Shown here in pieces: positions 1-6,923 of a DNA stretch of 57,511 nucleotides. A model generated the notes under the pieces. It saw only the letters and a program-made list of their open reading frames with translations. It ran no database searches and was not told the DNA's origin. This stretch comes from Clostridia bacterium (lineage in GTDB: Bacteria; Bacillota; Clostridia; Oscillospirales; CAG-272), in the NCBI GenBank assembly GCA_017461765.1, contig JAFTXO010000043.1:1-57511 (forward strand). Direction: 5' to 3'. The stretch's first letter is position 1. The number at the start of each line of letters is the position of its first letter. The position numbers and the translations under genes are program-made.

Positions 1-141
1 ATCACAACGGACATCCTCAATATTGTCGGAAACCTTTCAAACATCGAAAGCTACCGTCAGCCACAGGATTGTACCACCATTCCACAACACAGACCACGAA
101 AGGAGCGTAAGAAAGATCGTGAGTGGGAACACACATTATAA
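1..141 (+). CDS. 3' end of a probable mobilization protein (partial)
   Basis: An open frame enters from the left window edge and stops with TAA at 139-141, leaving 46 residues. The tail is very basic, with an RPRKERKK stretch near the end, as is common at the C-termini of relaxases and other conjugation proteins. The next two genes are a small ICE-type protein and a large serine recombinase, so this is probably the last part of a relaxase or mobilization protein of an integrative element. No catalytic motif is inside the window, so the family assignment is inference from tail composition and context. It could be another element-borne protein. Confidence 0.4.
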   Translation: MTTDILNIVGNLSNIESYRQPQDCTTIPQHRPRKERKKDREWEHTL

Positions 142-272
142 CCTTTATAAAAATATTCATTATATCATTTAGGAGGTACTTTTATAGTTGATAATTAGAA
201 TCATATGCTCATTGAAAATTGAATATTTTGCCAACGCAAAGTCAAAAATTATAGGACAGGAGGGTGAGTTAT

Positions 273-515
273 ATGCTAAAGATTGTTCACGATGATGAGA
301 AATATGTTGAGATATGGCTCACCAACGCTGAATCTCAGGACACAGTCCTACGCGAAGGATTGAAGCCTTTGTTTAAGGAATATAAGCAAAAGAAATATCG
401 CGTAGTGATTTTTAGTTCGGGAAAGGGAGATTTGCTGACACTTACCAAGGATCTGCTAAAGCATACCTTGGAGGTGAACGCAAGAAAGGAAGTAGAAGCG
501 GAAAAATGCCGCTAA
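273..515 (+). CDS. small conserved mobile-element protein, function unknown
   Basis: 80-residue protein starting at the ATG at 273, chosen because GGACAGGAGGG at 254-264 lies about 8 bases upstream. An in-frame GTG at 264 would leave no spacing. It begins with a beta-strand-like segment (KIVHDDEKYVEIWLT) and ends with a charged helix. Short proteins of this look, with a VVIFSSGKGDLL-type core, recur beside relaxase and recombinase genes of Clostridia integrative elements; I know no function. It is followed directly by a strong terminator. It lies between the mobilization-protein tail and the recombinase, on the same strand. Confidence 0.65.
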   Translation: MLKIVHDDEKYVEIWLTNAESQDTVLREGLKPLFKEYKQKKYRVVIFSSGKGDLLTLTKDLLKHTLEVNARKEVEAEKCR

Positions 516-522
516 TGATAAT

Positions 523-555
523 ATCGCCTCGGGGGAAACCTCGGGGCGATTTTTC
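523..555 (+). terminator. rho-independent terminator after the small element protein
   Basis: Twelve-pair GC-rich stem, 523-534 with 539-550 (two G:U pairs), GAAA loop, followed by TTTT. It ends the transcript of the small protein at 273 before the recombinase promoter. Confidence 0.85.
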
Positions 556-595
556 GACAGATTATGTTAATTTTTTATGTTTTAAGAAAAACTTA

Positions 596-624
596 TTGAC
601 ATACGAAAGGATATGTGATACAAT
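596..624 (+). promoter_or_regulatory. SigA-type promoter of the serine recombinase
   Basis: TTGACA at 596-601, 17-base spacer, TACAAT at 619-624 with an upstream TG. This is a near-consensus housekeeping promoter, 29 bases or more upstream of the recombinase start. Confidence 0.8.
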
Positions 625-659
625 GTTGTTAGTAAATAACGAGAAAGGAGAATTTGATA

Positions 660-2873
660 TTGATACCAAAATATAAGATTGCAGCCTACACTCGTATCTC
701 CGTTGATACAGAGCTTGACAAGGACAATACGAGTATTGAGAACCAAAAGGCAATCATTGATGATTATTGTAGGCTTCATTTTCCGACAAGTACGGTAGAT
801 TACTATGAGGATCGAGATCATTCGGGCTATACCTTTGAACAGCGTCCCGATTATTGGTTACGCCTTCGCCCCAAGCTGTTAAGGGGAGAATACGATATAC
901 TTATCGTTAAGGACTTGAGCCGTTTTTCAAGAAGAACGGGAAAAGGTCTTGCAGAGTTTGAGGATCTTTCCGAACACGATATTCGCATCATTGCCATCGG
1001 TGACGGAGTTGACTACTACCAAGACCACACGGACGATTGGATGAAGATCAAGCTATACTTCTTCGTCAATGAAATGCCCGTTACCGATGCAAGCCGTAAA
1101 GTATCTGACGTTATCGCAAGCAGACAGGCAAAGGGCGAATGGATATGCTCCGTGCCGTATGGATACGTTATCACCAACTCAAAGAAAATGACCTTCGAGG
1201 TGGATGAAGCGGCGGCAGAGGTAGTAAGAACGATATTCAAGCTCTATATTGACGGATACGGATATAAAAGAATTGCAAACCATCTGACCGACCAAAGCAT
1301 TCCCACACCGAGAATGAGGGAAAAAGCTCGCAAAGAAGCGGCGGGAGATGAATACAAAGGCAAGGTCAGAGAGCAATGGAGTATAGTCACCGTGTCCGAA
1401 ATTCTCTGCAACGATTTTTATATCGGCACGTTACGAGAGAGAAAGTTCCGCAGAAAGAAGATCAACGGAGCTGACGTAGCTCTTGACGAGAGCGAGCATA
1501 TCGTATTTGAAAATCATCACGAGCCGATTGTGGATTACAGAGTATTTGCGACCGCACGGGAAATGCTCAAACAACGCTCCACGAACCACTACCGAGGTGT
1601 TAAAAAATACGATAATACCTACTCGGGCTTTATGTTCTGCGGTGATTGCGGAAGTCCGATGTTTGCTATGAGCCGTAAAGACCTTGCAGAAGCATACACT
1701 TGTGGAACGTATCACGTAAGAGGACTTGCAGGATGTACCTCGCATCACGTGAGAGCCGACTTCCTTGATAAAATGCTAAAGCAATATGTCAAGAGAGTAC
1801 GGGATAACTCGGCGGCTATGCTTCGTATCCTTGAAGAAATGCTCAGCCACGAACAGCGAGCAACCGATAGCGGTATGCTTGCAGCCGATGAATTAAGGGC
1901 GCAGATCGAAGCGGAACGAGAAGAATTAAAATTACTCGCCCGTCAAAAAATTCGTGATATGGCAAGGCACAAGGATAACGCGCAGGTGATGGAAGAAACC
2001 TACGATGCTCTGATTGAAGAAGCCAACAACCGCATCGAAGGCTTGACCAATCAGCTTGCCTTGGTAGCCGATACCACCAATACGATTGTAAAGGTCAACC
2101 GTGTAGCACGGTCGGTTATCGAGATATTTGACGATATCATCGAAAAAGATAAACTTGATAAGCACACGCTACACCTCATCATTGATCGAATTATCATATA
2201 CGAGGATAACATCGAAATCAAGCTTCAAGCAGATGTTGACGAGCTTTTACGCACGGGAACGATTGAGCATATGAAGCACAACGAAGAAAGCGAAGTACCC
2301 GTAAATTTTAATCCAGACACGGAAAATATCGAAATATCCACCGAGAATTATTCAATGGTGGTAGCCCAACGCGCAAGAAATCAGCGCGATAAGGTTTTTC
2401 GTGTCAATGTTATCAGTGACGGCGATCCGCTTGAGATATATACTGACAGAGACGGTGAGGTCATTTTCAAAAAATATTCGCCGATCGGTGAGCTTGCCAC
2501 ATTTGCTTCTCAATATGTGGAAACGCTCAACAAGACGTGTCAGATGTCTGTTATAGTTTCGGACAGAGATAATATTATTGCTTGTGCAGGTGTTTCAAAG
2601 AAGGAGTTTCTTGACAAAAAGCTATCCGAGGATTTCGAGGGTATCATAGATACGCGTACCTTATATACTCACAAGGTGGGATCGCAAGGTGTGAATGCCG
2701 TTGACGGAACATCTCACATAATAAAGTATGCCATGCCCATTATAACGGATGGGGATATTATCGGATGTATCGCTTCTCTTTCCTTAATCGACGATGCTCA
2801 GACGGAAAACATGACAGAGGCTAAGCTTATTCAAACCGCCGCTTCCTTTCTTGGACGTCAGTTTGAAGGTTAA
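660..2873 (+). CDS. large serine recombinase with in-frame SpoVT C-terminal segment
   Basis: Site-specific integrase/excisionase of the TndX/TnpX type. Counting from the first possible TTG (654): resolvase domain 7-155 with catalytic Ser16 in the YTRIS motif and DLSRFSR at 88-93; recombinase domain to about 300; zinc ribbon Cys329, Cys332, Cys350, Cys361; coiled coil about 390-470; then the usual IYEDNIEIKL-like end near 525. The TTG at 660 is preferred because AAAGGAG at 644-650 is 9 bases upstream. There is no ATG start, so translation may be weak despite a strong promoter. From residue 588 to 739 the protein instead matches SpoVT: the second half of the AbrB hairpin (GDPLEIYTDRDGEVIF), KKYSPIGEL, then a GAF-like domain ending FLGRQFE. 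Total length ~737, against roughly 530-560 for this recombinase type. Either a fusion protein or, more likely, read-through across the attachment junction into the host spoVT gene. Confidence 0.9.
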   Translation: MIPKYKIAAYTRISVDTELDKDNTSIENQKAIIDDYCRLHFPTSTVDYYEDRDHSGYTFEQRPDYWLRLRPKLLRGEYDILIVKDLSRFSRRTGKGLAEFEDLSEHDIRIIAIGDGVDYYQDHTDDWMKIKLYFFVNEMPVTDASRKVSDVIASRQAKGEWICSVPYGYVITNSKKMTFEVDEAAAEVVRTIFKLYIDGYGYKRIANHLTDQSIPTPRMREKARKEAAGDEYKGKVREQWSIVTVSEILCNDFYIGTLRERKFRRKKINGADVALDESEHIVFENHHEPIVDYRVFATAREMLKQRSTNHYRGVKKYDNTYSGFMFCGDCGSPMFAMSRKDLAEAYTCGTYHVRGLAGCTSHHVRADFLDKMLKQYVKRVRDNSAAMLRILEEMLSHEQRATDSGMLAADELRAQIEAEREELKLLARQKIRDMARHKDNAQVMEETYDALIEEANNRIEGLTNQLALVADTTNTIVKVNRVARSVIEIFDDIIEKDKLDKHTLHLIIDRIIIYEDNIEIKLQADVDELLRTGTIEHMKHNEESEVPVNFNPDTENIEISTENYSMVVAQRARNQRDKVFRVNVISDGDPLEIYTDRDGEVIFKKYSPIGELATFASQYVETLNKTCQMSVIVSDRDNIIACAGVSKKEFLDKKLSEDFEGIIDTRTLYTHKVGSQGVNAVDGTSHIIKYAMPIITDGDIIGCIASLSLIDDAQTENMTEAKLIQTAASFLGRQFEG
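2415..2873 (+). other. spoVT: 3' portion of spoVT joined to recombinase; candidate attR junction near 2415-2430
   Basis: The 153 codons here encode SpoVT from about its residue 30 to its end: the GDPLEIYTDRDGEV strand of the AbrB-like hairpin, KKYSPIGELATFASQY, and the GAF-like sensor with SDRD, a KKEFLDKKLSE helix, the ITDGDIIG strand and the final FLGRQFE helix. The first ~30 residues of SpoVT (start codon and first half of the DNA-binding hairpin) are absent and replaced by recombinase sequence. SpoVT is the forespore regulator of late sporulation genes in Bacillus. Large serine recombinases often integrate inside conserved genes, so the simplest reading is that the element's right attachment junction lies around the GGCGATCC at 2421. 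The 5' part of spoVT would then lie at the left end of the element, outside the window. Confidence 0.6.
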
Positions 2874-2961: not shown

Positions 2962-2998
2962 GAGATGCTGCGATTTTTCGCAGCATCTCCTCTTTTTT
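2962..2998 (+). terminator. rho-independent terminator after recombinase/spoVT
   Basis: Perfect 12-bp stem 2962-2973 with 2978-2989, TTTT loop, followed by CTCTTTTTTAT. It lies 89 bases after the stop codon. Confidence 0.9.
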
Positions 2999-3183: not shown

Positions 3184-3750
3184 TTATGATAAACTAAAAT
3201 AATCAAGCATACCGTTATATATTCCCTGCGCGAAAAGCGACGGATTGTTAGCCATAAGATTTGCATCGTAAGGATTTGAAATAAATCCGAGCTCGACCAA
3301 AACAGCAGGCATTTGCGTCTTTCTTAATACATAAAGTCCGGGGCGCACCTTTACCCCCCTGTTTTGAAGTCCGGTTGCCTCATTCAAGCCCCTTAGTATA
3401 TCCTCGCCAAGCTCTGAGGCTATCGAGGGTTGGGAATAAACCAATGCCTCGCTTCCGCTTACTGACGAATTAAGAGATGCGTTTGCGTGTATGCTTATAA
3501 AATAATCAGCTCCCCAAGAGTTTGCATCGTTTACTCTTGCTTGAAGGCTTCCCGCATTTGATGTTCCGAGCTGAGTTTCGGGTGTCGGACGTGACAGTCT
3601 TACCTCGAAATTACCGTTACTTCTTAAAAGCGTCGCAAGGCTTTGACCTACCTTGTAGGTTATATCCTGCTCGGTATATCCGCTTCCTTCTGCGCCTGTA
3701 TTTGGACTTCTTGGATTATGCCCTTGATCTATATAGACTTTTATTGCCAT
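3184..3750 (-). CDS. N-acetylmuramoyl-L-alanine amidase, leaderless CwlC-like
   Basis: Zinc amidase of the Amidase_3 family that cuts the bond between MurNAc and L-Ala in peptidoglycan. 188 residues, just the catalytic domain: zinc ligands His11 (DQGH), Glu27 and His88 (SIHAN), catalytic Glu153 (LVELGFISN). There is no signal peptide and no SPOR or SH3 domain. Bacillus CwlC also lacks a signal peptide and acts in mother-cell lysis; phage endolysins are the other leaderless type, but no phage genes are nearby. The start is supported by a GGGGGAG ribosome site. The upstream sequence fits a SigK promoter, which together with the neighbouring spoVT segment favours the sporulation role. Divergent from the TtcA-like gene. 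Confidence 0.88.
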   Translation of the reverse strand: MAIKVYIDQGHNPRSPNTGAEGSGYTEQDITYKVGQSLATLLRSNGNFEVRLSRPTPETQLGTSNAGSLQARVNDANSWGADYFISIHANASLNSSVSGSEALVYSQPSIASELGEDILRGLNEATGLQNRGVKVRPGLYVLRKTQMPAVLVELGFISNPYDANLMANNPSLFAQGIYNGMLDYFSLS

Positions 3751-3805: not shown

Positions 3806-3809
3806 TACA

Positions 3810-4580
3810 ATGAAAGATTTCAAAAATATTCAACATATTCTCAGCCACACAAGAAAGGCTGTTGAGGAATACAACATGATAAGCGATGGCGATCGAATTG
3901 CTGTCGGCATATCGGGCGGAAAGGATTCGCTTTCTCTTCTATGTGCGCTATCTACCATGAGAAGATTTTTAAAGCAAAAATTCTCCCTTGTTGCAATAAC
4001 GATCGATATGGGCTTTGAGGGTGCTGACTTTTCCGATATTGCGCGTTTTTGCGAGGATTTGGACATTGAATATCACGTCATACCCACTCAGATTTACCAA
4101 ATAATTTTCAACGTGAGAAAAGAGAAAAATCCTTGCTCCCTGTGCGCGAGAATGCGCAGAGGTGCGCTTCATGATGCAGCGAAGGAATTTGGTTGCAATA
4201 AAATCGCTTTGGGACATCATTTTGACGATATCGTTGAGACGTTCATGCTCAATCTTTTCTTTGAGGGACGCGTCGGCTGCTTCAGTCCCGTTACATATCT
4301 TTCGAGAAAGGATCTTACGCTTATAAGACCTCTTATCTATGCAAGAGAAAAAGAGATCGTTTATTTTTCCTCAAAGGAAGCTTTGCCTATATATAAAAGC
4401 CCGTGTCCTGCTGACGGTCACACGGAGAGAGCGAAAATGAAGGAATTTTTAAAGCCGTTTGATATGGAGCATCCCGGTCTTTATCACAGAATACTCGGAG
4501 CTATACAGCGTGCAGAGGTAGATGGCTTTCACGAAGACAGAATAGATAACGACGAGAAGAAAAAAAGAAAAAATTTATAA
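3810..4580 (+). CDS. TtcA-like tRNA 2-thiolation PP-loop ATPase
   Basis: Member of the TtcA/TtuA group that adenylates and thiolates tRNA bases using a bound Fe-S cluster. 256 residues from the ATG at 3810, chosen over longer in-frame extensions because GAGG at 3801-3804 is correctly spaced and homology begins there. PP-loop SGGKDS at 35-40; CSLC at 109-112 supplies two cluster cysteines; a further Cys occurs in SPCPADG near residue 200; GHHFDDIVET follows the CxxC region as in TtcA. A lysine-rich tail ends the protein. Substrate position (C32 or another base) cannot be told. Single gene with its own terminator. Confidence 0.85.
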   Translation: MKDFKNIQHILSHTRKAVEEYNMISDGDRIAVGISGGKDSLSLLCALSTMRRFLKQKFSLVAITIDMGFEGADFSDIARFCEDLDIEYHVIPTQIYQIIFNVRKEKNPCSLCARMRRGALHDAAKEFGCNKIALGHHFDDIVETFMLNLFFEGRVGCFSPVTYLSRKDLTLIRPLIYAREKEIVYFSSKEALPIYKSPCPADGHTERAKMKEFLKPFDMEHPGLYHRILGAIQRAEVDGFHEDRIDNDEKKKRKNL

Positions 4581-4637: not shown

Positions 4638-6923
4638 TTAATCCTTTTTGGATTTTGAGCGCTTTATAGCTATTGTGACAGTATCGGAAAGGCTATCTGC
4701 TGACGAGTCAGATGATGATTTTTTTGTACCGACGGTGGGGGATTGCTCCCAATATAGCTTTCTGCGATGCCTTTTTCTTACCGTGATAAATACTATATAA
4801 CCGATTATTGCGGCTGCTATTATCGCGCTTATTACATATATCGTACCGTTGAACGACGAGGACTCGACCTTCAATGCCTCCCAGTTAGAGTTCAGGGTTG
4901 AAAGATTTTGGCTTGAAAGATTTCTGTAAGCGTACTTATCGAAAAGCTCATTTATATTGCTCATCGGCTCGTATATTATCTCCTCGTCTCCGTCAAGAGT
5001 TGCAAGATAATCAGGATTTGTATATACCAATCTGTTAGGTGATGCGTAGTAGATATATTCCGCATTTGCGATAGCGGGTGCGCCGTATTTTTCATCTACC
5101 GAGAGCATAAAATCAATATACGCTATAGCATGTGTCTTTTGCTCTTCAGAAACATCCACGGGAATACACATAGCATCAGCAAAGACGTTTGTTACGGTTT
5201 CGCCGTTTTCATCGGTAGGATAATAGAAATCAAGATTTATTCCTCTTTGCTCCGCCTGATAGATCATCGAAAGCGCATCCCCCACATAATAAGGAGCGAT
5301 CCATGCTTCTCCCGATTCCATCTTGTTGAAGACCTCATCCATTACATAGCTTTGGACTATTGGCTTTTGCTTTATAAGCTCGTTAAGGCACGCCTGCCAC
5401 TGCTCTGCAGTCGGATCGTTTACATTGACACCGAGCTTATACATTGCAGTTCCGAATGCATCTCTTGCATTATTAAACTGAAGTATCTTACCGCTGTATT
5501 TTTCATTCCAAAGAAGATCCCAGCCGCCGATATCCTCCTCGGATACGTGATCGGCGTTATACACAATACCTATAACTCCGTAGGTATACATTACAGAATA
5601 TACATCGTCTCCGTTATCGTAAAACGGCTTTTGGAATATTTCAGCCTCCTCCTTCGTAAGAGTTTTACCCTCACTCGGAGCTCTTAAGAGATAATCGTAA
5701 TTTTTTATTACGTTAGTTATCTCTTCTCGGGATGCTATCGGCTGAATAAGCTCCTCTTTTATAAGTCGCTCTATCATATAATCGGACGGAATTATAACAT
5801 CGTAACCGCCTGCGCCTGCTTTCAGCTTGGCGTATAGGTCTTCGTTGCTTGCGTAGGTCGTATAATTTACCTTGACCTTTACTTTTCTTCCGTATTGCTC
5901 TGATAGATATTCAGAATAATATTTTTCAAATTCCTTATTCGTATCTACCGATGCGACTCCGTCCTCGTCTTCGCTTCCGTCAGAAATATATTCGCCCCAG
6001 TTATATACGTTTACCGTTACAACCTCTGCAAATGATGTTCCTATAAAAAGTCCGAGCGTTATTGCCGCTATAACAGAAAATGTGGATACAAGGACTATTT
6101 TTCTTCTCTTCTTCTGTTTAAGAGTAAGCGTCTTTTTTTCCTTGTCTCCCGAAATATTTGAAAGGATAAGAAGAACAAGGATAGCAACAAATATCAATGT
6201 TGAAAGTGCGTACATATCGGGTGTTACGCGCTTTTTGGTCATTGAGTAAATTCTTATAGGCAATGTTTCGAAGCCGCTGCCGACGGTGAAATAGCTTATA
6301 ACAAAATCGTCAAGCGAAAGAGTAAAAGCCATTATAAAGCCGGAAATTATACCCGGCAATATTTGAGGAAGCTCGACCTTTAAAAAGGATTGTACGGGTG
6401 TACAGCCGAGGTCAAGTGCCGCTTCGGGAAGATGCTTGTCCATTTGCTTGAATTTCGGCATTACGGAAAGAATAACGTACGGAAGATTGAATGTTACGTG
6501 TGCTATCAAAACCGTACCGAAGCCAAGCACTGTCTTTGAGTTTACAAGCCCGCCGACAAAAACGAACAGGAGCATCATTGAAATACCTGTAACGATCTCG
6601 GGGTTCATCATAGGAACATTTGTTACCGAGGTTATACCGTTTTTCAGGTGCTTATTTTTAATTTTATTTATGCCGTATGCCGCAAGAGTACCTATAACGG
6701 TAGCTATAGCTGCGGAAAGGACGGCAAGAATAAGGGTATTCTTTAGTGCCTCCAAGGTTGCGGCATCGCTGAACAGCTCTTTGTACCATCTTAACGAGAA
6801 GCCATCAAATCTGCCCGTACTGCTCGATGAGTTAAACGAGAAAAGTATAAGAACGGCAATAGGCATATAAAGAAATATAAATACGAGAACCGTATAGATA
6901 TTTCCCGCTGTTTTTCTTTTCAT
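4638..6923 (-). CDS. PotC-PotD fusion: spermidine/putrescine permease plus binding protein
   Basis: 761 residues. Residues 1-265 are a MetI-type permease of the PotC kind: first membrane helix at 8-28, several more helices, and the EAALDLGC EAA loop that contacts PotA. A basic linker and a membrane anchor at about 280-303 follow. Residues 310-710 are a PotD-like periplasmic-type binding domain (VNVYNWGEYI start, YDVIIPSDYMIERL, AWIAPYYVGDAL). A C-terminal membrane helix (722-742) and a Ser-rich basic tail end the protein. The binding domain is therefore tethered at both ends. PotC-PotD fusions are known in Bacillota. It is last in potA-potB-potCD and overlaps potB by 4 bases (ATGA). Confidence 0.93.
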   Translation of the reverse strand: MKRKTAGNIYTVLVFIFLYMPIAVLILFSFNSSSSTGRFDGFSLRWYKELFSDAATLEALKNTLILAVLSAAIATVIGTLAAYGINKIKNKHLKNGITSVTNVPMMNPEIVTGISMMLLFVFVGGLVNSKTVLGFGTVLIAHVTFNLPYVILSVMPKFKQMDKHLPEAALDLGCTPVQSFLKVELPQILPGIISGFIMAFTLSLDDFVISYFTVGSGFETLPIRIYSMTKKRVTPDMYALSTLIFVAILVLLILSNISGDKEKKTLTLKQKKRRKIVLVSTFSVIAAITLGLFIGTSFAEVVTVNVYNWGEYISDGSEDEDGVASVDTNKEFEKYYSEYLSEQYGRKVKVKVNYTTYASNEDLYAKLKAGAGGYDVIIPSDYMIERLIKEELIQPIASREEITNVIKNYDYLLRAPSEGKTLTKEEAEIFQKPFYDNGDDVYSVMYTYGVIGIVYNADHVSEEDIGGWDLLWNEKYSGKILQFNNARDAFGTAMYKLGVNVNDPTAEQWQACLNELIKQKPIVQSYVMDEVFNKMESGEAWIAPYYVGDALSMIYQAEQRGINLDFYYPTDENGETVTNVFADAMCIPVDVSEEQKTHAIAYIDFMLSVDEKYGAPAIANAEYIYYASPNRLVYTNPDYLATLDGDEEIIYEPMSNINELFDKYAYRNLSSQNLSTLNSNWEALKVESSSFNGTIYVISAIIAAAIIGYIVFITVRKRHRRKLYWEQSPTVGTKKSSSDSSADSLSDTVTIAIKRSKSKKD

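Follow-up and report, generated by a model that had tools for sequence, protein, structure and literature searches.

Large serine recombinases carry cargo islands into one conserved gene in the SCC elements (CcrA, CcrB and CcrC), whose site at the 3' end of rlmH leaves that gene whole. Other elements interrupt sporulation genes, and skin (sigK), SPbeta (spsM), vfbin (spoVFB), gin (gerE) and yin (yabG) are reported as such sporulation gene-intervening elements (PMC10747680, PMC5595907). In two further systems the attachment (att) site lies within a gene that integration alters, i.e., the integrase gene in the case of the suicidal (SSV-type) tyrosine integrases, which are called exclusively archaeal (PMC8371274), and the repressor gene in the integration-dependent immunity of mycobacteriophages, where attP lies in the gene and integration swaps the C-terminus of the protein (PMC9934374, PMC4557955), so that the repressor loses its degradation tag (PMC9934374). 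Here we describe an island inserted in the sporulation gene spoVT of a Clostridia bacterium, found in a window of 57,511 nt that comprises the whole of contig JAFTXO010000043.1. With considerable confidence, we assign the window to a family of islands whose bacterial attachment site (attB) lies at spoVT codons 31-33, whose own site (attP) lies in the 3' end of the recombinase gene, and whose recombinase trades its C-terminus on integration. Among the open-licence PMC papers listed by our literature searches, none was seen to deal with elements in spoVT.

A sequence-only reading of this DNA had noticed that a recombinase gene runs into spoVT, and our analysis bears this out: a single open reading frame (ORF) at 654-2873 on the plus strand, with a TTG start and 739 aa, joins a large serine recombinase (LSR) to SpoVT codons 32-180 without an intervening stop. 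Searches against Pfam placed Resolvase (E 2.5e-13), Recombinase (E 5e-22) and Zn_ribbon_recom (E 2.8e-12) in this frame, all over cut-off, as well as SpoVT_C at residues 613-738 (E 5.6e-32), and the NCBIfam model spore_V_T (TIGR02851) aligned its positions 23-180 with fusion residues 583-738. The two parts meet at GGCGATCCG (2421-2429). An AlphaFold2 model of the fusion (mean pLDDT 74, pTM 0.43) consists of a coiled-coil recombinase, a linker and a GAF domain, with the coiled-coil region formed by long helices at 398-436 and 441-495, the linker (533-604) disordered, and the GAF domain (605-737) well predicted at a pLDDT of mostly 84-91. The combination of Resolvase, Recombinase, zinc ribbon and coiled coil marks 654-2423 (+) as a predicted LSR, which ends in the attP left arm 'VNVISDG', while 2424-2873 (+) holds the 3' part of spoVT, i.e., codons 32-180 and the stop with the whole GAF domain, in frame with the recombinase.

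The recombinase gave a strong match to a PHROG integrase (E 5.9e-85), and its closest solved relative is YokA of SPbeta (PDB 9dxh, E 2.8e-23). Similarity to CcrB was also detected with NCBIfam (E 1.3e-35). Unlike SCC elements, however, the island has a different attB and a recombinase far below the Ccr cut-offs (CcrB 123 vs 900 bits, CcrA 79 vs 700, CcrC 77 vs 900). A second structure, PDB 9dxd, is a chain combining YokA with YotN, which we take to be the SPbeta integrase SprA and its recombination directionality factor (RDF) SprB, respectively; the natural fusion partner in the spoVT islands is instead the GAF domain of the target gene. Control of recombination direction by an integrase-RDF fusion is the title subject of PMC5737554.

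The 5' part of spoVT, which should exist elsewhere if an element interrupts the gene, was sought outside the window in the source genome (G000), a metagenome-assembled genome (MAG) of 55 contigs and 81% completeness in which the window is contig C37. The TIGR02851 search of this MAG gave only two matches at E <= 1e-8, i.e., the C-half on C37 and an N-half on contig C5 (83003-83101, model positions 1-33) lying 1.3 kb from the end of C5; no full spoVT was found elsewhere in it. The N-half, MKATGIVRRIDDLGRVVIPKEIRRTMRIREGDP, supplies codons 1-31, is broken at the same core and then passes into non-SpoVT sequence of the other element end (C5:83093-84449, outside the window). In relatives of the same genus with an intact spoVT (L193, L199 and L200), a heparinase-like gene lies upstream, and an amidase, a PP-loop and a PotC/PotD-like gene lie downstream. 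In G000, the heparinase-like gene and the N-half stand at the end of C5, and C37 starts with the C-half followed by an N-acetylmuramoyl-L-alanine amidase gene (3184-3750, minus strand; Amidase_3, E 3.3e-43), a PP-loop (ATP_bind_3) gene assigned by Pfam (3807-4577, plus strand) and the PotC/PotD-like gene. The amidase stood beside spoVT in 10/10 intact same-genus loci compared and the heparinase-like gene was matched in 3/10. This shared synteny of C5 and C37 places the element in the native spoVT, across an assembly gap.

When the two flanks were joined in silico, a complete SpoVT of 180 aa resulted, which scored 299 bits against 279-326 bits in 27 intact homologues. At the level of sequence, then, excision would rebuild the split sporulation gene exactly, as had been proposed, and intact orthologues exist in relatives. 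In this respect the island resembles the sporulation gene-intervening elements, which likewise combine a serine recombinase with a sporulation gene that is split at a short core and rebuilt by excision (PMC10747680).

To define the attachment sites, we compared 33 attL, 80 attR and 34 intact attB sequences, all of which have the core GGCGAYCCG in common. The core lies where attB had been predicted, near 2421, and within the frame that had been expected to contain attR (2421-2429); attB appears to consist of spoVT codons 31-33, which are conserved. Between G000 and a second genome, G012, the element arms were identical (300/300 and 297/297 nt), whereas the host flanks showed ungapped identities of 61% (297 nt) and 70% (93 nt) and belong to two species. 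In the remaining attR pairs compared, identity was 88-97% on the element side and 52-70% on the host side. Core position 3 of attL (counted from 1) varied as it does in hosts, while position 6 was element-like, with C in 31/33 attL sequences against 21/34 hosts. Since the comparisons of G000, G012 and L175 put the element/host switch between core positions 3 and 6, we place the crossover at GA (2424-2425). Integration thus splits spoVT at GGC|GA, creating attR, in which recombinase and GAF domain are in frame, and attL, in which SpoVT codons 1-31 are in frame with a short element-encoded tail. On this comparison, positions 1-2423 (+) form the right-hand 2.4 kb of the element, whose left limit in the window is the contig edge.

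The two halves of attP form an inverted repeat, GTGTCAATGTTATC ... ACAACATTGACAC, centred on GA. For this element, 22/39 positions pair when centred there, compared with 7-13/39 at eight other shifts. The left arm persists in attR as GTGTCAATGTTATCAGTGAC (2401-2420, plus strand) and pairs, as an inverted repeat, with ACAACATTGACAC in the left element end. An attP whose inverted-repeat arms surround a central dinucleotide, a differing attB and hybrid attL and attR sites are consistent with LSR-type integration. The peptides NVIS and TTLT beside the core had been considered as protein motifs but were dropped, since they are best read as a coding trace of the attP arms.

The recombinase frame closes with the attP left arm (VNVIS), and the right arm opens the tail that follows the N-half, in the same phase. 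In one natural contig (L088, from G152) the recombinase frame passes directly into such a tail, which, in the 57 nt that the contig covers beyond the crossover, has one difference from the left end of its own element; a search of 125 genomes of the genus found the joined form only there. Together with the matching phase of the arms, this joined form indicates that attP lies inside the recombinase gene and that integration replaces the tail by the GAF part of SpoVT. The left-end tail is most likely the native C-terminus of the recombinase. Codon statistics were taken from 36 of the 38 left ends with a TTGA-type arm among 47 distinct left ends. Tail codons 44, 47, 48, 51 and 54 conserve F, A, M, I/L and R, respectively, with third positions varying most, which points to a constraint on the protein beyond the attP arm. 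Codons 38-39 were fixed or nearly so at every position, partly by construction because the left ends had been filtered for a TTGA-type arm; codons 44-54 lie outside that filter. Counted from codon 31, the tail frame has a length of 27-35 residues in 38/47 left ends and of 47 residues in this element. A structure prediction of the natural attP form was too uncertain and was not used.

The recombinase thus appears to change form at each jump of the island. As in the archaeal suicidal integrases, the att site lies in the integrase gene and integration alters that gene (PMC8371274), but the enzyme of the spoVT islands is a bacterial serine recombinase and its gene is not cut into inactive parts; a host domain replaces a short tail, and all catalytic parts stay in one frame. 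The likeness to the mycobacteriophage system lies in an attP within a gene and a C-terminus swapped by integration (PMC9934374, PMC4557955), except that here it is the recombinase that is altered, and it gains a folded host domain.

The same recombinase-SpoVT join, for which a database search had been suggested, was in frame at 74 of the 80 named loci returned by a recombinase-led search; the join in the window is therefore not a chance event. As these 80 loci are biased to carriers and partly redundant, prevalence was estimated only from two SpoVT-based samples and a class sample. In the first, sample (a), 145 genomes of relatives including G000 itself were searched for SpoVT and at least 136 had a match, of which, among the matches listed, 13 began no earlier than model position 20. 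Eight of these 13 lay in open frames of 720-808 codons and two more had the same junction (G012, 429 codons, cut by the contig start, and G058, at a contig edge); the others were an intact copy cut by a contig edge (G006), a match starting at the core (G131) and a different rearrangement (G120). Sample (b) covered the genus of R. flavefaciens ATCC 19208, in which 102 of 120 genomes had a SpoVT match, 69 being N-terminally complete (one cut at the other end), 32 C-half only and one N-half only. The C-half was seen joined to recombinase sequence in 30 of the 32: in 22 the frames had 668-845 codons with the recombinase end adjacent, in four the recombinase was present but out of frame, and six lay at contig edges, with recombinase residues before the junction still visible in four. 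In sample (c), 391 genomes of the class searched with a fusion profile, at least 12 genomes matched and at least six of these had full-length fusions; only two candidates per genome were scored, so these counts are lower bounds.

In total, 84 distinct fused loci were collected. Carriers include R. bicirculans 80/3, R. flavefaciens 007c and ATCC 19208, A. massiliensis AT3, Pseudoflavonifractor An85 and Ruminococcus sp. Marseille-P6503, and 3/20 loci from a viral collection were fusions. Both spoVT halves bracketed an element on one contig and strand in 9/18 genomes searched, among them the first four strains named, over spans of 14.6 to 54.8 kb (about 0.55 kb of spoVT included); in G065 and G232 the span was 8.6 kb.

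The fusion could have been conserved without any attachment site, as a fixed gene; it is indeed conserved in relatives, but together with an evident attachment site. Pairwise comparison of 78 fusions (3003 pairs) gave 53 pairs with recombinase identity above 90%, of which 30 had less than 75% identity in SpoVT-C; the window and L059 have recombinases of 100% identity (rounded) and SpoVT-C parts of 59%. The reverse, SpoVT-C above 90% with recombinase below 80%, was seen in 15 pairs, in which host genes that are nearly the same contain different elements. These divergences suggest that insertions turn over quickly, and identical element arms in differing hosts point to horizontal transfer. The best evidence for excision or fresh integration comes from genome G170, in which an intact spoVT lies on contig C9 while 95 nt at the start of C5 and 158 nt at the end of C6 are both 100% identical to it and meet the element exactly at the core, so that empty and occupied sites occur in one assembly. 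Contigs ending precisely at the core (e.g., L136, L142, G218 and C45 of G152) were not counted as mixed occupancy, since an element common to several species gives the same break.

The cargo was surveyed with Pfam and PADLOC in 88 selected ORFs from eight elements. It includes restriction-modification genes of types I and III, GmrSD and an abortive-infection protein, together with ABC transporters, surface proteins of the cohesin/LRR kind, two tyrosine integrases and a single relaxase. Neither phage structural nor type IV secretion system (T4SS) families appear among the 25 families most often matched in each of the two Pfam scans (39 and 54 families matched). On this sampling the islands do not look phage-like, and gin is not phage-like either (PMC5595907). 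Unlike skin-type elements, they appear to be horizontally mobile with variable cargo, target a forespore gene, have attP in the recombinase gene and change the C-terminus of the recombinase.

Just upstream of the recombinase, at 273-515 (+), lies a gene for a small conserved protein of about 80 aa with an FxSGxGDL motif. A homologue lies no more than 900 nt upstream in 61 of the 84 distinct fused loci, and at least six of the other 23 have less than 200 nt of upstream sequence. The protein had no match in Pfam, NCBIfam or PHROGs; we infer that it is a candidate RDF. A consensus scan found a putative sigma-A type promoter for the recombinase (TTGACA-17-TACAAT, 596-624, plus strand; 11/12 matches) and an intrinsic terminator-like site with a 12-pair stem after spoVT (2962-2989, plus strand), where the recombinase-spoVT unit ends. 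Further downstream, at 4638-6923 on the minus strand, a PotC-like spermidine/putrescine permease and a PotD-like substrate-binding protein (named by eye) are joined in one frame of 761 codons, an arrangement also present in several relatives. At the left end of the element on C5, the N-half is followed by the short tail, then TnpV and a Phd/YefM-ParE antitoxin-toxin pair (L002:1733-2825), possibly island-stabilising.

Several loci depart from the simple arrangement. Six (L056, L057, L186, L209, L210 and L211) have an element left end with no recombinase recognised nearby; in these elements, which measure 1-13 kb, a second spoVT 5' half at the right end makes spoVT whole downstream. The duplicated halves align over 75-520 nt at 73-99%, and the duplication takes in upstream sequence in five of the six, comprising essentially the coding part only in L186. 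In L041 (G144:C15) and L043 (G083:C51), two spoVT N-halves lie 10-15 kb apart on one strand, apparently as tandem arrays in which the first element seems to carry its own spoVT 5' half. In G120, the halves L049 and L050 (C2:697996 and 938272) lie 240 kb apart on opposite strands of a single contig of 1.5 Mb. Both break at the same core, their flanking arms are different, and no recombinase was recognised in 10 kb and 7 kb around the breaks; a large inversion that has one of its ends in spoVT is the probable cause.

These findings can be joined in one mechanism. In the circular form the tail would be the recombinase's own C-terminus, as in the natural contig L088 and, by extension, in other elements. 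On integration the enzyme would lose the tail and gain a folded GAF domain attached by a flexible linker; excision would reverse the exchange and remake spoVT. The island would spread horizontally among gut Clostridia as a cargo and defence island, and spoVT function may return on excision in some cells. Least certain is the last step: the two forms of the recombinase are probably not alike in activity or in direction of recombination, and the directionality factor is likely to be the small protein encoded upstream.

A number of observations weigh against this account. Four of the 26 non-edge split loci of sample (b) are out of frame, L129 and L231 have no attR arm, and 9/47 left ends are off the arm pattern, several of them still with a tail. 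Two recombinase homologues lie at other sites, L082 (G151) and L128/L271 (G277); their frames end in unrelated C-termini, and spoVT is intact in both genomes. In L118/L162 (G153:C11) the island is inserted in spoVT in the opposite orientation, so that the 3' end of the recombinase gene meets the N-half on its reverse strand, which is hard to reconcile with a crossover at GA. The joined form in L088, being one base off its own left end, may be a tandem copy and not a circle, and the helix predicted for the native tail has low confidence (pLDDT around 30). The in-frame fusion to the GAF domain could be a one-in-three founder accident, which is conceivable because the tail already fixes the frame. 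Finally, G170 could be a strain mixture, and the case for excision comes from assembled sequence.

Whether the island serves its host is a separate matter. It may well be an ordinary parasite in a safe site, which uses spoVT for its conserved DNA and its dispensability during growth, with the C-terminal swap having no consequence and spoVT being off save for rare excision; we regard this as a serious possibility, though short of probable. Fast turnover and horizontal spread, a cargo typical of defence islands, a vegetative-type promoter match on the recombinase, a GAF domain only loosely tethered in the model and a frame match that can arise by chance in one founder are all in keeping with it. 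On the other hand, the recombinase was kept at 34/35 non-edge split loci of samples (a) and (b) (8 and 26, four of them out of frame; the exception is G120), although quick turnover without selection could explain this as well. Also against it are the six recombinase-less loci with a second 5' half that makes the gene whole, the protein-level selection on the tail and the retention of spoIVA in most carriers. Recombinase retention and the six repaired loci suggest that cells tolerate a split in spoVT chiefly where the gene can be restored. As a single marker gene for sporulation, spoIVA was present in 123/145 relatives (including G000) and in 117/120 genomes of sample (b); it was absent from carriers G058, G196 and G236, the last two being among the three sample (b) genomes without it.

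More tentatively, the recombinase may be self-switching, each reaction rewriting its own C-terminus, with the island acting as a reversible on/off switch of spoVT in a germ-line (forespore) gene. The circle-born form with its helix tail would integrate, while the chromosome-born form, restrained or redirected by the SpoVT GAF domain, would excise on a signal, with reintegration after germination; the peptide made of SpoVT(1-31) and the tail, expressed from the spoVT promoter, may take part.

An unlikely alternative is a programmed element of the skin type, in which a sporulation sigma factor drives excision and spoVT is rebuilt as sigK is by skin. The target is a sporulation gene, most hosts retain spoIVA, and elements with serine recombinases are reported to split sigK, spsM, spoVFB, gerE and yabG, with several of these elements excising in sporulation (PMC10747680, PMC5595907). 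However, the cases with a stated compartment, sigK and gerE, act in the mother cell, which dies (PMC10747680, PMC5595907), whereas SpoVT in Bacillus is a forespore protein made under sigma-G (PMC5061766). Excision in the forespore would pass to the spore and, barring reintegration of the island, be inherited. A direct copy of the mother-cell skin system is thus not a good fit, and a reversible cycle or plain parasitism is a better one. The promoter match on the recombinase is also of sigma-A type, in a scan that did not cover sporulation promoters.

We reject, as highly improbable, a fixed fusion, with recombinase-SpoVT_C domesticated as a sensor-recombinase or regulator and an element that is now immobile. 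Its presence in 84 distinct loci would agree with this, but diverged hosts carry identical element arms that break off exactly at the core, empty sites are found in relatives and within the G170 assembly, and attP arms flank both sides in most loci. An assembly or binning artefact, for which the fragmented state of the MAG and its two spoIVA genes of differing score (on C38 and C10), a likely sign of some contamination by contigs of another species, might speak, is rejected as next to impossible, given the same junction in unrelated assemblies, including long isolate contigs, and a synteny that ties both contigs to one locus.

Taken together, the data describe a common island family that usually resides in the gene of a sporulation regulator: in the R. 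flavefaciens genus, 32 of the 102 SpoVT-positive genomes have the C-half only. It offers a bacterial serine-recombinase case of an attP within the recombinase gene, with the C-terminus exchanged for a host sensor-type domain. The direction of LSR reactions is controlled via C-terminal regions and partner proteins, and natural pairs of one enzyme with two C-termini thus make this control directly testable. The islands also make a specific attB/attP pair available for gut Clostridia, and a spoVT that is missing in genome surveys may be a split gene.

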